In this document: one piece after another, positions 878 through 62,323 of the stretch
Layout: the number at the start of each line of letters is the position of its first letter
How positions within the stretch are numbered: position 1 is the first letter of the stretch
Assembly: GCF_036084755.1 (NCBI RefSeq)
Contig: NZ_CP107968.1
Coordinates: 6,162,501 to 6,226,500 of the forward strand
DNA length: 64,000 bases
DNA from: Streptomyces sp. NBC_00370
GTDB taxonomy: Bacteria; Actinomycetota; Actinomycetes; Streptomycetales; Streptomycetaceae
Direction of reading: 5' to 3'
Translations under genes and position numbers: made by a program
The notes under the pieces: model-generated
Seen by the model: the letters and a program-made list of their open reading frames with translations, nothing else
Told to the model about the DNA's origin: nothing
Databases searched by the model: none

Positions 878-1882
878 GTGGGGGACGTGGCGGTCGGCGC
901 ACGATCCGGACACGATGATCCCGAGGAGGGACACGAGCAGCTCGCCGAGTCGCCCGCAGCCGTGACCGATATGACGAACGACATGACGAAACCGGCGGCG
1001 CCGGGGAGCGGAGCAGGCACGGAATCCGGGAGCAGCACCGAGTACGGCGGCAGCGGCGGCCCCGGTGACGGCGAGGGCGACGGGGAAGATGACGGCGCGG
1101 CCGGCCGGCCGCGCAAGCAGCGCTCCTTCTGGAAGGAGCTGCCCCTGCTGATCGGGATCGCGCTGGTACTGGCGCTGCTGATCAAGACCTTCCTGGTGCA
1201 GGCGTTCTCCATCCCGTCCGACTCGATGCAGGACACCCTGCAGCGGGGCGACCGGGTGCTGGTGGACAAGCTCACCCCGTGGTTCGGCGCTGAGCCGCAG
1301 CGCGGCGAGGTGGTCGTCTTCCACGACCCGGGCGGCTGGCTCGAGGACACCCCGACGCCGGACCCGAACGTGGCGCAGAAGTTCCTCAGCTTCATCGGCC
1401 TGATGCCGTCGGCCGAGGAGAAGGACCTGATCAAGCGGGTCATCGCGGTCGGCGGTGACACGGTGAGCTGCGACAAGGGCGGCAAGGTCAAGGTCAACGG
1501 CCACGCGCTGCAGGAGTCCGGGTACATCTACCCGGGCAACACTCCGTGCGACGACGAGCCGTTCGGGCCGATCAAGGTCCCCGACGGCCGTATCTGGGTG
1601 ATGGGCGACCACCGGCAGAACTCGCTGGACTCCCGCTACCACCAGTCGCTGCCCGGCAACGGGACGGTCTCCACCGACGAGGTCGTCGGCCGGGCCATCG
1701 TCGTGGCATGGCCGGTCAACCGGTGGGACGCGCTGTCCGTGCCGAGCACCTTCGACCAGTCGGGGCTGAGCGCAACGGCAGGCGCGGCTCCGGTGGCGGT
1801 CGGCCTGGTGGGCGCCTTCCCGCTGGTGCTGTGGCGCAGGAAGCGCCGAACCCGTGGACTTACCGAGCGTAACCCCGGGTAA
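878..1882 (+). CDS. lepB: Signal peptidase I
   Basis: Second type I signal peptidase paralogue, 334 residues. A GTG start at 878 is chosen because AAGGAG lies 5 bases upstream; an in-frame GTG at 872 overlaps that ribosome binding site and is less likely. The first 75 residues are acidic, Gly-rich and probably cytoplasmic. A membrane segment follows at about 87-108, then catalytic Ser116 (SDSM), Lys186 (DLIKRV) and the GDHRQNSLDSR box. Near the C-terminus AVGLVGAFPLVLW followed by a Lys/Arg cluster looks like a second membrane anchor. It differs from its neighbours mainly in the long acidic N-terminus. Confidence 0.95.
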   Translation: MGDVAVGARSGHDDPEEGHEQLAESPAAVTDMTNDMTKPAAPGSGAGTESGSSTEYGGSGGPGDGEGDGEDDGAAGRPRKQRSFWKELPLLIGIALVLALLIKTFLVQAFSIPSDSMQDTLQRGDRVLVDKLTPWFGAEPQRGEVVVFHDPGGWLEDTPTPDPNVAQKFLSFIGLMPSAEEKDLIKRVIAVGGDTVSCDKGGKVKVNGHALQESGYIYPGNTPCDDEPFGPIKVPDGRIWVMGDHRQNSLDSRYHQSLPGNGTVSTDEVVGRAIVVAWPVNRWDALSVPSTFDQSGLSATAGAAPVAVGLVGAFPLVLWRRKRRTRGLTERNPG

Positions 1883-1979
1883 GGTGCGGTCCCAGATCGT
1901 CGATCTCCGAGGATCTTGATCTCCGTGGATCACTCCCGGAAATCTCCGAGGATCACTCTCCGGAAATGGGGGCGCTGGG

Positions 1980-2738
1980 ATGAGCGGAACAGGACGGACC
2001 AACGACGGCCGCGGCCGCCTCGGCAATGTGCTGTCGGGGCTGGCCGTGGCCGTCGGCTGTGTGCTCTTCCTCGGAGGGTTCGTCTGGGGCGCCGTCGTCT
2101 ACCAGCCGTACACGGTGCCGACGGAGTCGATGACGCCGACAGTGAACGCGGGCGACCGGGTGCTCGCCCAGCGGATATCGGGCGCCGACGTGCGCCGCGG
2201 CGACGTGGTGGTCTTCAAGGACAAGCAGTGGGGCGACCTGCCGATGGTGAAGCGGGTGGCCGGGGTCGGCGGCGACAAGGTCGCCTGCTGCGACAGCCAC
2301 GGCCGGCTCACCGTCAACGGCAAGCCGATCGACGAGCCGTACACCCAGAAGGCCATCGGCGGTCTCGCCTCGGCGACCGCCTTCTCGGCGTCGGTGCCGA
2401 AGGGTCAGCTGTTCATGCTCGGTGACGAGCGCAGCGGGTCGCTGGACTCCCGGGTCCATCTGCAGGACCCGGACCAGGGCTCCGTGCCGCGCTCCGAGGT
2501 GCGGGCGCGGGTGGACGCCGTCGCCTGGCCGCTGGGGACCATGATCGGCCGTCCCGCCTCCTTCGCCGCGCTGCCGGGCGGGGTGTCCCGGCCGGGGCCG
2601 CTGAAGCTGATGGTGGCGGCGGTGATTGCCGGTGCCGTGCTGATCCTGGGCGGCGCGGCCCTCGGACCGGTGCTGGGCAGGCTGTCCAGGCCGCGCCGGG
2701 GGGCCAGGACGGGCGAGGTGTCCGCGGGTGCCCGCTGA
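1980..2738 (+). CDS. lepB: Signal peptidase I
   Basis: Third type I signal peptidase paralogue, 252 residues and the most divergent of the three. The N-terminal membrane segment is at about 21-40. The catalytic Ser50 is in TESM, Lys91 in MVKRVAGVGGD, and the last box reads GDERSGSLDSR instead of GDHRxxSxDSR. A second hydrophobic segment at about 205-230 makes a C-terminal anchor. The gap from the previous gene is 97 bases, so it may have its own promoter. The stop overlaps the NUDIX start by 11 bases, which suggests translational coupling to the downstream gene. Confidence 0.94.
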   Translation: MSGTGRTNDGRGRLGNVLSGLAVAVGCVLFLGGFVWGAVVYQPYTVPTESMTPTVNAGDRVLAQRISGADVRRGDVVVFKDKQWGDLPMVKRVAGVGGDKVACCDSHGRLTVNGKPIDEPYTQKAIGGLASATAFSASVPKGQLFMLGDERSGSLDSRVHLQDPDQGSVPRSEVRARVDAVAWPLGTMIGRPASFAALPGGVSRPGPLKLMVAAVIAGAVLILGGAALGPVLGRLSRPRRGARTGEVSAGAR

Positions 2739-56149: not shown

Positions 56150-57304
56150 ATGACTGCAATTTCACTCGGAATGCCGTCCGTTCCCACGAAGCTCGCCGAA
56201 CGCAGGGTCAGCCGCCAGATCCAGGTCGGCTCGGTGGCGGTCGGCGGGGACGCACCGGTGTCGGTCCAGTCGATGACCACGACGCGTACGTCGGACATCG
56301 GCGCGACGCTCCAGCAGATCGCCGAGCTGACCGCGTCGGGGTGTCAGATCGTCCGAGTGGCGTGCCCGACGCAGGACGACGCGGACGCGCTGGCGACGAT
56401 CGCGCGGAAGTCGCAGATCCCGGTGATCGCGGACATTCACTTCCAGCCGAAGTACGTCTTCGCGGCGATCGACGCGGGCTGTGCGGCGGTCCGGGTCAAC
56501 CCCGGGAACATCAAGCAGTTCGACGACAAGGTGCGGGAGATCGCGAAGGCCGCGCTGGAGACCCGGACACCGATCCGGATCGGCGTCAACGCGGGCTCGC
56601 TGGACGCGCGGCTGCTGAAGAAGTACGGCAAGGCGACGCCGGAGGCCCTGGTGGAGTCGGCGCTGTGGGAGGCGTCGCTGTTCGAGGAGCACGGCTTCCG
56701 TGACATCAAGATCTCGGTGAAGCACAACGACCCGGTGGTGATGGTGAATGCCTACCGTCAGCTCGCCGAGCAGTGCGACTACCCGCTGCACCTCGGTGTG
56801 ACGGAGGCGGGCCCGGCGTTCCAGGGGACCATCAAGTCGGCCGTGGCGTTCGGTGCGTTGCTCTCGGAGGGCATCGGGGACACGATCCGCGTCTCGCTGT
56901 CCGCCCCGCCGGCCGAAGAGGTCAAGGTCGGGCTGCAGATCCTGGAGTCGCTCAACCTGAAGCAGCGCCGGCTGGAGATCGTGTCCTGCCCCTCGTGCGG
57001 CCGGGCGCAGGTGGACGTGTACAAGCTCGCGGACGAGGTGTCGGCGGGACTTGAGGGCATGGAGGTGCCGCTGCGCGTCGCGGTCATGGGCTGTGTGGTG
57101 AACGGTCCGGGCGAGGCGCGCGAGGCCGATCTGGGTGTGGCGTCGGGCAACGGCAAGGGCCAGATCTTCGTGAAGGGCGAGGTCGTCAAGACCGTCCCCG
57201 AGTCGAAGATCGTGGAGACCCTGATCGACGAGGCCATGAAGATCGCCGAGCAGATGGAGAAGGACGGCATCGCCTCCGGCCAGCCCGAGGTCGCTGTCAG
57301 CTGA
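56150..57304 (+). CDS. ispG: (E)-4-hydroxy-3-methylbut-2-enyl-diphosphate synthase
   Basis: 384 residues; penultimate step of the MEP pathway, a 4Fe-4S enzyme. TIM-barrel motifs [30 protein letters not shown] and VNAGSLD are present, and the cluster ligands lie in [11 protein letters not shown] and [13 protein letters not shown]. Length is normal for the actinobacterial short form. Confidence 0.97.
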
Positions 57305-57313
57305 CCCTGCCGG

Positions 57314-57399
57314 GTGCCGCGCTGACCCTGCGGTGCCGCGTTGAGCTAGCGGTGCCACGCTGACCCTGCGGTGCCGCGTTGAGCCTGGCGGTGCCACGG
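57314..57399. repeat. 19-bp tandem repeat after ispG
   Basis: About four and a half copies of a 19-bp unit, GTGCCGCGCTGACCCTGCG or the variant GTGCCGCGTTGAGCTAGCG, begin 10 bases after the stop. The third copy has GTGCCACG. Each copy contains TGA, so readthrough would stop at once. Confidence 0.85.
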
Positions 57400-58441: not shown

Positions 58442-59029
58442 ATGCTGAGCATCCCCGGGGACGACCCCCGGACCCCCGACGTGCAGGTAGGGCCGGTCGA
58501 TCTCACCGCTCGCGTGGACGACGCCCTCGCCGTACAGGCCCTCGCGTTCGGGCTCAGCGACGACGAGATCGACGTACGCCGGCACATCGTGCTCCGGCAT
58601 CTGATGTACCCCGGCTGCCGCTCCTTCGGGGCCACCACGGACGAGGGCAAACTCGTCGGGTTCGTCTACGGGCTGCCCAACCAGCGCACGCACTGGTGGT
58701 CGACCGTCGTCGAGCCGTATCTGCGCAGGACCGAGTCGGACAGCTGGCTCGACGACTCCTTCGTCATCACCGAACTCCACGTCCACCCCGGCTACCAGGC
58801 CAGGGGCATCGGACGCGCGCTGATCACCGTCATCACCGACGGGGTCACCCAGTCCCGGTCGATCCTGTCGGCGATCGACGTCGAGAGCCCGGCCCGGCAT
58901 CTGTACCGCCAGCTCGGCTACCAGGACCTCGCGCGCCAGGTCCACTTCCCGAGCGCGGCACGGCCGTACGCGGTGATGGGGGCGACGCTGCCGTTGCGCA
59001 GACCCGGGGCGGTCGCCTCGGACGCGTGA
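58442..59029 (+). CDS. GNAT family N-acetyltransferase (second)
   Basis: 195 residues. GNAT fold with VHPGYQARGIGRALITVI as the acetyl-CoA loop. N-terminal sequence not related to the first GNAT gene. It probably shares its transcript. Confidence 0.87.
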   Translation: MLSIPGDDPRTPDVQVGPVDLTARVDDALAVQALAFGLSDDEIDVRRHIVLRHLMYPGCRSFGATTDEGKLVGFVYGLPNQRTHWWSTVVEPYLRRTESDSWLDDSFVITELHVHPGYQARGIGRALITVITDGVTQSRSILSAIDVESPARHLYRQLGYQDLARQVHFPSAARPYAVMGATLPLRRPGAVASDA

Positions 59030-59046
59030 TGTCCGGGCCGTGTTTC

Positions 59047-59082
59047 GTGTGTCCCGGGCCCGCGGTCCGTGTGTCCCGGGCC
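59047..59082. repeat. 22-bp period repeat after second GNAT gene
   Basis: GTGTGTCCCGGGCC occurs at 59047-59060 and 59069-59082, with a degenerate third copy just upstream. Lies 18 bases after the stop. Confidence 0.55.
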
Positions 59083-59170
59083 GCCGTCCCTGTGGAGAAG
59101 TGATTTCCGGGTGCGGGTGCGGCACGGCTAATCTCCTGGCATCACCCGAGAGAACGCAGGAGTGCTCCCC

Positions 59171-60865
59171 ATGCCCCAGGTCCAGCGCATGTCCCGTTTG
59201 ATGGCCAAGACATTGCGCGACGACCCGGCCGACGCGGAGACGCTCAGCCACAAGCTGCTCATGCGCGCGGGTTACGTCCGCCGCACCTCCGCCGGCATCT
59301 GGAGCTGGCTGCCGCTGGGCAAGAAGGTCCTCGACAACGTCTCGCGCGTCGTACGCGAGGAGATGGACGCGATCGGCGCGCAGGAGGTGCTGCTGCCCGC
59401 ACTGCTGCCCAGGGAGCCGTACGAGGCGAGCGGCCGCTGGGAGGAGTACGGCGACCTGCTGTTCCGGCTCAAGGACCGCAAGGGCGCCGACTATCTGCTC
59501 GGCCCGACGCACGAAGAGATCTTCACGCAGCTCGTCAAGGACCAGTGCACGTCCTACAAGGACCTGCCGGTGATGCTCTACCAGATCCAGACGAAGTACC
59601 GCGACGAGGCCAGGCCGCGCTCGGGCGTGCTGCGCGGGCGCGAGTTCCAGATGAAGGACTCGTACTCCTTCGACACCACGGACGAGGCCCTGGCCGAGTC
59701 GTACGCCCTGCACCGCGCCGCCTACCAGGCCATCTTCAAGCGGCTCGGGCTCGACTTCCGGATCGTCTCCGCGGTCTCCGGCGCGATGGGCGGCTCTGCG
59801 TCGGAGGAGTTCCTGGCACCGGCAGCGGCGGGCGAGGACACGTTCGTGGACTGCCCGGCGTGCGACTACGCGGCCAACACGGAGGCGGTGACGTTCGTGG
59901 CGCCGGCGGTTGGTGCCGTCGACCACCCTGCCGTCGAGGAGCTGGACACGCCGGACACCCCGACCATCGAGTCGCTCGCCGCGCTCCTCGGGGTGCCCGC
60001 TTCGGCCACGCTGAAGAACCTGCTGGTCAAGGTCGACGGCGAGATCGTCGCCGTCGGTGTGCCGGGCGACCGCGAGGTCGACCTCGGCAAGCTCGGCGAA
60101 CACCTCGCCCCCGCGGTGGTGGAGCTGGTCACCGCCGAGGACTTCGAGGACCGGCCGGATCTGGTACGCGGCTACGTGGGCCCGCAGGACCTGAAGGTCC
60201 GCTACATCGCCGACCCCCGGATCGCGCCGGGCACGGCGTGGATCACCGGCGCGAACCGGACGGGTACGCACGCGCGCAACGTGGTCGCCGGGCGGGACTT
60301 CGAGGTCGACGACTACCTGGACGTCGTGGTGGTCGAGGCGGGCGACCCGTGCCCGGCGTGCGGTGCGGGCCTGACCCTGGACCGCGCGATCGAGATCGGC
60401 CATATCTTCCAGCTCGGCCGCAAGTACGCCGACACGTTCCAGCTCGACGTGCTCGGGCAGCAGGGCAAGCCGGTGCGGGTGACGATGGGCTCGTACGGCA
60501 TCGGCGTCTCGCGCGCGGTGGCGGCGCTGGCCGAGCAGTCGGCGGACGAGCAGGGGCTGTGCTGGCCGCGCGAGATCGCGCCGGCGGACGTGCATGTCGT
60601 GGCGGCGGGCAAGGCGCTGCAGACGGAGCTGGCCGTGTCGGTATCCGAGCAGTTGGCCGCCGCCGGGCTGCGGGTGCTGGTGGACGAGCGTCCCGGGGTG
60701 TCGCCGGGCGTGAAGTTCACGGACGCCGAGCTGATCGGTGTGCCGCAGATCCTGGTGGCGGGGCGGCGCTCGGCGGAGGGTGTGCTGGAGCTGAAGGACC
60801 GGCGCAGTGGTGAGCGCGAGGAGCTGACGGTGGCGGAGGCGGTGGCTCGGCTCACCGCGGTCTGA
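59171..60865 (+). CDS. proS: Prolyl-tRNA synthetase, bacterial type
   Basis: 564 residues. ATG 59171 with AGGAG 8 bases upstream. Class II motifs: [13 protein letters not shown], motif 2 [20 protein letters not shown], motif 3 [14 protein letters not shown]. The inserted editing domain (about 230-400, [15 protein letters not shown]) for clearing misacylated Ala-tRNA is present, and the anticodon-binding domain is at the C-terminus. Confidence 0.97.
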
Positions 60866-60914
60866 GGTTTCCGGCCTTCCGGCTTCTGGGCTGTCTGGGC
60901 TTCTGGTCTGTGTG

Positions 60915-61345
60915 CGGGTGCGGCTCGGTTGCGGGTCCCTGGCTGCGGTTGTCGCCGGGGGCCCCTCCGGGGTCGTGTCCTGCGCTGCGGTGTCGCCGTC
61001 CGGCGCGGTTCGGGGGTTGCGGGTTTGCGACGCGGTGGTCGCCGGGCGCGGTGTCGCCGTCCGGCGCGGTTCGGGGTTGCCGGTCTGGGTTGCGGTTGTT
61101 GCCGGGGGCGGTGTCGCCGTCCGGCCGGTGGTCGGTGCGGGGTTGTGGTTGCGGTTGTTGCCGGGGGCCCTCCGGGGTCGTGTCCTGCGCTGCGGTGTCG
61201 CCGTCCGGCGCGGTTCGGGGGTTGCGGGTCTGGGTTGCGGTGGTTGCCGGGGGCGGTGTCGCCGTCCGGCGCGGTTCGGGGTTGCGGGTTCTTGGTTGCG
61301 GTTGTTGCCGGGTGCCGTTCCGGGGTCGTGTCCTGCGCTGCATGA
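60915..61345. repeat. Six-unit imperfect repeat array after proS
   Basis: A 573-base gene-free gap after proS carries about six tandem units. Each has GCGGTTGTTGCCGGGGG then GGTGTCGCCGTCCGGCGCGG and TTCGGGGTTGCGGGT. Units of about 63 bases alternate with longer ones holding an extra segment CTCCGGGGTCGTGTCCTGCG. The plus strand is strongly G-rich with many GGG runs. It has no spacer structure and encodes nothing recognisable. Confidence 0.85.
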
Positions 61346-61438
61346 TTTACGGCGCGTACTCGCCTGACGCGGAGCCACCGCCGAGATGCGCCACAAATCA
61401 CGCTCTACGCTCCGGACACCACCCCTGCACGACCCCCT

Positions 61439-62323
61439 TCACAGCCAGGCCGCGAACTCCAACAGCAGCTCGGCCGCCTGGCGGTGACGGGCCGTCAGGG
61501 CGCGGGTTGCGGATTCCACGGCGCGGAACAGCGTCCAGGCGCGCAGCCGGTCACGGTCGACGTCCAGGGAGTCCGCCAGCCGGTTGATCCGGCGTCGGGC
61601 TGCCGAAGCGCCGGCGTCCGAGGCGACCAGGTCTTCCACCCGGTCGCGTACCAGCCTCGCCAGGTCGTACGCCCGCTCGCCTACCAGCGGCTCGGGGCCC
61701 ACGGCCAGCCACGGTGTCCGGTCGCCCGCCAGGACCTTTCCCTGGCGGAACGCGCCGTGCAGGAGCATGGTCTCCGTCGGACCGGTCATGAGGTCCGCTC
61801 GGGCCTGGAGCGCTGCTGTGATCAGGGGGGCCGCGGTTTCGTCCTGGGTCGCGGCCATCGTTTTGGCCTGGCGTTCCGTGCGGGTCTCCACCGTTTCGAA
61901 CCCGTGGTCCGCCGGCGGCTCCACCCACAGGCGTCGCAGTGTGCCCGCCGCCTCCAGCAGGGCCTTGGCCTCCGGGAGCGAGCGCAGGGACATCTCGGGG
62001 TGCAGGCGCTCCAGCAGCAGTGCGTCGTCCAGGACCTCCGCCGCGCCCCAGCCCTTCCAGTGGGCCAGGGCCGCGTGTTCGAGAGCGGGGGCGGCGAAGG
62101 GTGGAGCGATCTTGAGAGTGGCGGGGGAGTCGTCGCTCCTGCGTACGAGCATCACCAGGCTGCTCCGGCCGCCGGGCGCCACGACCCGTTCGACGGTCAG
62201 GCCCTGACGGGTGACCGTTTCCTGGGCGAGGGCGGGTAGTCGGTCGAGCCACGGGGTGGCCGCGGATTCTCCGTACGTCTCGCCGAGCGTGCGCAGCAGA
62301 CGCTCCGGCGGTTCAAAAGCCAT
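61439..62323 (-). CDS. Aminoglycoside phosphotransferase-fold protein lacking catalytic residues
   Basis: 294 residues resembling APH(6)/streptomycin 6-kinase-type proteins (LVMLVRRSDDSPATLKIAPP, LLERLHPEMSL). The catalytic loop, usually HGDLHxxNV, reads HGAFRQGKV, so both the base Asp and the Mg-binding Asn are gone. The metal-binding DPKPLVG motif reads GPEPLVG, losing another Asp. It is likely a pseudokinase. Convergent to proS across the repeat array. Followed downstream (minus strand upstream) by a ferritin-like gene. Confidence 0.8.
   Translation of the reverse strand: MAFEPPERLLRTLGETYGESAATPWLDRLPALAQETVTRQGLTVERVVAPGGRSSLVMLVRRSDDSPATLKIAPPFAAPALEHAALAHWKGWGAAEVLDDALLLERLHPEMSLRSLPEAKALLEAAGTLRRLWVEPPADHGFETVETRTERQAKTMAATQDETAAPLITAALQARADLMTGPTETMLLHGAFRQGKVLAGDRTPWLAVGPEPLVGERAYDLARLVRDRVEDLVASDAGASAARRRINRLADSLDVDRDRLRAWTLFRAVESATRALTARHRQAAELLLEFAAWL

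Follow-up and report, generated by a model that had tools for sequence, protein, structure and literature searches.

A tandem array beside proS in Streptomyces sp. NBC_00370 is the variable-length tail of an incomplete copy of a dispersed hairpin-forming element

Results

A tandem array and a hairpin occupy the gap between proS and a kinase gene

We analyzed a stretch of 64,000 nucleotides from the chromosome of Streptomyces sp. NBC_00370 (the host), hereafter the window. As a preliminary description of this DNA had stated, a repeat array lies here after proS, in the gap between two convergent genes. The left one is proS and the right one an APH_6_hur-type kinase gene. The features of the locus, with array units placed by anchors, are as follows:

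59162..60865, plus strand: proS, left convergent neighbour, outside the element
60866..60920: A-free stretch between the end of proS and the first recognisable unit (no A from 60866 to 61029)
60915..61341, minus strand: tandem array, the tail (arm) of hairpin B; its minus strand is C/A-rich and nearly T-free
60921-60986: array unit 1, partial, long type
60987-61047: array unit 2
61048-61107: array unit 3
61108-61191: array unit 4, long
61192-61252: array unit 5
61253-61341: array unit 6, long
60966..60988: 23-base insert, copy 1
61171..61193: 23-base insert, copy 2
61319..61341: 23-base insert, copy 3, also within the outer stem of hairpin B
61317..61430, minus strand: hairpin B (covariance model match, descriptor scan, DNA fold z -3.8, 32 copies in the genome)
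61408-61404, minus strand: GTAGA loop strand of this hairpin B
61439..62323, minus strand: APH_6_hur-type kinase gene, right convergent neighbour, outside the element

The array DNA (60915-61341) consists of six units, three of which are long and carry the same 23-base insert. This agrees with the two-level organization described before, except that the basic unit measures 60 to 61 bases and not 63. Tandem Repeats Finder (TRF) gave scores of 241, 481, and 212 within 60987-61341, whereas the best score in 200 dinucleotide shuffles of the array's own bases was 120, indicating that the repeat is real. The non-coding character proposed earlier also held, because the unit lengths (60, 61, 84, and 89 bases) do not maintain a single frame. 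Stop codons are absent from all 6 frames of the array because A is nearly absent on one strand; we thus rejected a coding or decayed gene, the openness of the frames coming merely from missing stop codons and the units being out of frame. The suggestion that the G-runs of the plus strand form quadruplexes was not borne out: no set of four tracts of at least 3 G was present, whether the loops were allowed 7 or 12 bases at most, versus averages of 0.9 and 1.9 such motifs, respectively, in the shuffled array. Two other tandem repeats were seen in the window, one at 57300-57398 (38-base period, 2.2 copies, score 151) that begins at the end of the gene at 56150-57304, and a short one of 21 to 22 bases before proS (59025-59094), where a 66-base A-free run is also present.

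Array and hairpin recur together across the host chromosome

The preliminary description had proposed searching the genome for further copies of the array. In the 8.60-Mb, single-contig host genome the array DNA gave 53 matches, many of which stop at one same base, with reversed matches several hundred bases off, and hairpin and array were found to recur together across the chromosome. In the window, hairpin B adjoins the array directly on its right on the minus strand, and the array stops where the hairpin starts. A full copy has the order arm, hairpin B, spacer, hairpin A, inverted arm; the window copy lacks hairpin A and the inverted arm before the kinase gene. The host carries 32 copies of hairpin B and 24 of hairpin A, 23 of the latter being identical over 86 bases and one matching at 91%. 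At 23 of the 32 B loci the hairpin is paired with hairpin A, which is inverted relative to B in all 23 pairs at a loop-to-loop distance of 110 to 303 bases. In paired hairpins the GTARA sides (see below) face the spacer and a C-rich, T-poor tail extends outward of each hairpin. Inverted pairs also occur in 3 other genomes (G191, G064, and G175), and in other species some complete copies are A + A or B + B rather than B + A. Altogether, what lies beside proS is an incomplete copy of an element that forms hairpins and is scattered over the chromosome, and the array is the tail of this copy, variable in length; the picture of a stand-alone array was correct as to the array and incomplete as to what it belongs to.

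These data bear on the simplest alternative, a plain minisatellite beside proS that has nothing to do with the hairpin. Mycobacterial MIRU and other intergenic minisatellites likewise consist of tandem units whose number varies among strains, and unit number does vary between strains at this locus (see below). However, the array studied here goes together with a structured hairpin: many of its matches across the chromosome share one end point next to hairpin B, its DNA recurs inverted next to hairpin A, and in other species, too, the hairpin is followed by a T-poor tail. Given this genome-wide linkage of arm and hairpin, the plain minisatellite reading is already disfavoured, and we consider it scarcely credible.

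Several minor features of individual copies were observed. The loop of the host A copies (e.g., positions 1966-1994 of locus L002) exceeds that of other genomes in length. Within it, GAAGGAGCTCATG is reminiscent of a ribosome site plus start codon, and 23 copies are identical there. Near the tip of hairpin B (around 61358-61368 in the window) a few bases vary by copy and their neighbours are almost fixed, as if these bases were swapped among copies. In genome G064 (locus L117, 1501-2240) two A hairpins lie approximately 700 bases apart instead of approximately 200, with a small ORF between them (1639-2004, minus strand) that appears glyoxalase-like by eye.

Covariation supports the fold and points to the GTARA strand

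In other Streptomyces the letters of the stems differ and the pairing is kept. We aligned 46 of 58 distinct A hairpins, the 46 coming from 6 genomes; the 12 whose loops measure 14 bases, those of G194 included, were omitted so that columns remained aligned. In this alignment 98.7% of cells were paired and 173 cells had changed on both sides, with a both-sided change in at least 1 sequence at 11 of 18 pairs; as a control, partners slid by 1 to 3 columns paired at 36.5% to 41.5%. The B alignment comprised 20 of 43 distinct hairpins, 4 of them from the host (the 23 omitted were host or AcH 505 copies). In it 94.0% of cells were paired, and both-sided changes affected 53 cells and 11 of 30 pairs. 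For both hairpins, none of 500 shuffles matched the observed number of paired cells, the number of cells with a both-sided change, or the covariation score. The number of pairs changed on both sides was reached by 26 of 500 shuffles for A and 2 of 500 for B, and that of further pair types by 140 and 14 of 500, respectively; of five measures of covariation, these two are not exceptional against shuffles. A motif-plus-stem descriptor had no match in 493,341 bases of reversed sequence.

Common to A and B are a stem, a 5-base GTARA strand opposite a single A, and an inner stem starting with GC. Outside the host, the inner part of A consists of a tiny loop (GC-GNA-GC or GC-GNNA-GC). In B the inner part is a longer conserved stem, TGATTTGTGG opposite CCGTAAATCA, with a variable tip; genomes G377 and G060 have a variant loop. 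Among 76 distinct B stems of 12 pairs each, 39 G.T pairs (11 in the host, 3 in AcH 505, and 25 in other genomes) and no A.C pair were counted on the GTARA strand, together with 138 other mismatches, of which 131 were in host and AcH 505 copies. The occurrence of G.T without A.C in B stems suggests that it is the GTARA strand that folds, and does so for RNA and single-stranded DNA alike. The 110 A stems are almost wholly Watson-Crick (1 G.T, 3 A.C, and 5 other mismatches) and have no G.T bias.

The way in which the stems vary also bears on whether the hairpins are the inverted ends of a MITE, i.e., a non-autonomous DNA transposon moved by a classical DDE transposase. Such an origin would fit the inverted arms and hairpins spaced approximately 200 bases apart and the many similar copies, but a site bound as double-stranded DNA would forbid stem letters that vary freely while pairing is kept. 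Moreover, an unsystematic look noticed no target duplication, and the genes between two B hairpins at one locus (L252), considered as possible cargo, encode an ABC transporter ATPase and an FAD oxidoreductase and no transposase. We therefore regard the MITE reading as improbable. No transposase tied to the element was found. We also considered and rejected a RAYT/IS200 enzyme as mobiliser, because no Y1_Tnp (IS200-type) transposase is recognisable in the host and none is present in 9 of the 12 other genomes that contain element matches.

A T-poor tail follows the hairpin

Between the stop codon of proS and the hairpin lie 476 bases that contain a single A on the plus strand. The next A-free run of the window by length spans 71 bases, and 36 other 3' flanks within the window contain 14.6% A on average. 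The array has a C/G ratio of 1.76 on its minus strand. When positions 20 to 80 past the hairpin were read on the GTARA strand, T made up 0.1% to 1.0% in 56 host hairpins and 1.9% to 3.6% in 111 hairpins of other genomes, compared with 14.3% in the intergenic DNA of the window. In a sample of one hairpin from each of 27 genomes (27 of 30 B-model loci, without that of the host and without two located at contig ends), the 80 bases past the B-model match had on average 52% C, 27% G, 16% A, and 4.7% T, with T at 5% or less in 16 of the 27 tails and 11% at the highest, and the 80 bases on the opposite side of the hairpin had on average 9.6% T. Long A-free runs themselves are plentiful in all 24 genomes inspected and as common in non-carriers as in carriers. 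We thus discarded them as a marker of carriers and take the depletion as a property of the tail.

The element is patchily distributed within Streptomyces

A strict A pattern matched 13 of 199 Streptomyces genomes, with up to 77 matches in one genome. Eight of these were judged genuine; the other five (G059, G146, G172, G187, and G195) have one match each, with GTAGAG and no pairing flanks, and were rejected. The B model matched 72 of 392 Streptomyces genomes at E values up to 0.001, the weak matches among which may be due to chance; because no more than nine candidates were scored in each genome, the copy numbers from this search are lower bounds. A class-wide B search matched 9 of 394 genomes. 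Eight of these are Streptomyces; the match in the remaining one (locus L272), a perfect palindrome without GTARA, was not counted as a member. Scanning 84,980 species genomes with a DNA pattern gave 31 stretches, all titled Streptomyces and 16 of them from AcH 505. A search of phages and plasmids with the host version (L002, 1501-2180) returned no match, and in Rfam no family reached its gathering score, with sub-threshold matches to generic hairpins only. In another genome (G371, locus L263, 1200-1700) we observed a nearly perfect B-type palindrome without the GTARA strand, adjoining an arm that contains GGTTGCGGTTGTCG and closely resembles the array of the window.

Copies vary in length between strains and are enriched between convergent genes

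A comparison of unit number among related strains had been proposed, and was made with AcH 505. At its proS site, the flanks are 98% to 99% identical to those of the host and a single unit is present in this draft genome versus six in the host; hairpin A is likewise missing. The distance from flank to hairpin differs between host and AcH 505 at 10 of 16 shared sites; the count of 6 sites of equal length is an upper limit, the anchor at one of them (L006) probably lying inside the array. Assembly collapse could explain part of these differences, AcH 505 being a draft with N gaps. No empty sites were found in AcH 505, and the three unmatched sites that could be placed are N gaps at the element. 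In six relatives in which the gap between proS and the kinase gene can be read in one stretch, no hairpin of the A or B kind is present, and therefore the element arrived or arose in the host lineage. At L002 and at L074 of Streptomyces sp. NBC_01481, a B hairpin lies between the same two neighbour genes (81% and 77% identical) but in opposite orientation, which may reflect either a shared old site or a preferred one.

Among 33 host loci, 16 are convergent, 14 tandem, 2 divergent, and 1 at an edge, based on gene calls that are an approximation; convergent gaps make up 6 of 54 in the window, and the excess at host loci is significant (Fisher p approximately 1e-4). With the same kind of gene calls, 40 loci in four other genomes comprise 20 convergent, 14 tandem, and no divergent ones, 5 at edges, and 1 without a hairpin by scan.

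This placement raises the possibility that the element has never been mobile and belongs to the host as a terminator or insulator working in both directions, with selection keeping the hairpin and C-rich tail between genes and gene conversion homogenising the copies. The excess in convergent gaps, the strong stems on both sides, and the occupation of the same 16 sites compared in AcH 505 are in line with it, as are Streptomyces 3'-end data with strong stem-loops lacking a U tract (PMC8269248, in the part consulted). However, a terminator of this kind would not need the conserved GTARA/A internal loop, and the patchiness within the genus, the identity of the 23 A copies, and the absence of the element from the gap in the six readable relatives all argue against it. 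We consider a never-mobile terminator possible but rather unlikely.

Discussion

The locus beside proS holds part of a multi-copy, structure-constrained, strand-asymmetric intergenic element with an unstable tail. We favour, with a probability of roughly 0.55, the reading that it is a non-coding dispersed element working via folded single strands, similar to REP/BIME, non-autonomous, with a minisatellite tail and located mostly downstream of genes. According to this reading, the hairpin would be recognised as single-stranded DNA or RNA by an enzyme acting in trans that spread it, as in REP/BIME (REPIN); tails would lengthen and shorten as minisatellites, and copies would persist where harm is small, mostly downstream of genes.

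The element probably has an effect on transcript ends as well. RNA with the GTARA strand of the hairpin would then enter the C-rich, U-poor tail, and hairpin plus tail would make a candidate Rho loading site. RNA from either neighbour would pass a GTARA hairpin and then a tail before turning antisense to the other gene, so that a hairpin pair may limit read-through both ways. The window copy would keep the half that acts on leftward transcripts, from the kinase gene towards proS. A bolder form of the hypothesis, which we think doubtful, is that the element is a new class, so far from Streptomyces only, in which a covarying GTARA/A hairpin with a U-poor, C-rich tail is read as RNA by a dedicated protein, was spread by a non-Y1 enzyme, and is used by the host as a two-way insulator between convergent genes.

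Of the known systems, the GTAG REP/BIME/REPIN family, as described in the consulted text of PMC3733652, is closest in its mode of action. Both have many intergenic palindromes per genome and are patchy among species, both have unpaired bases of GTA(G) type 5' of a stem with G.T pairs, and the head-to-head dimers of that family resemble the consistently inverted host pairs. The element nevertheless lacks two tested REP features, the free-end tag and the Y1 transposase: GTARA is an internal loop strand within a longer outer stem, and the host has no associated Y1/RAYT gene. Its hairpins are also different in measuring approximately 70 to 115 nt and in being followed by long, T-poor tails. The same text reports CGTC repeats that seemingly have no dedicated transposase, and it mentions neither Streptomyces nor Actinobacteria. 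MRSC-65-2 (PMC11109978), which we compared by its description only, is similar in its long covarying stem, in its dozens of copies per genome, and in being thought selfish, and differs in its conserved UYCCGG repeat and its occurrence in diverse phyla. Finally, PMC8269248 reports transcript ends of S. clavuligerus at strong stem-loops without a U tract, some of them bidirectional. The strong stem and the sites between convergent genes are shared with these Rho-dependent or U-less terminators, for which the consulted part of the paper describes no conserved internal loop, multi-copy identity, or long T-poor tails. In the literature consulted, mainly titles and the first lines of abstracts, together with passages of PMC2267715, PMC4681348, and PMC1590033 and of the papers cited above, no entry names the element.

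These findings add to Streptomyces a repeat family that is dispersed, defined by structure, and comparable to REP elements, and whose covariation suffices for a search model. Its copies provide a concrete set of loci for studying the ends of transcripts, the action of Rho, and mobility. The element also accounts for arrays that vary between strains and probably for some assembly breaks in carrier genomes: in G194, four contigs (C18, C21, C25, and C28) begin within approximately 30 bases of an A hairpin, and the element therefore probably breaks the assembly there.
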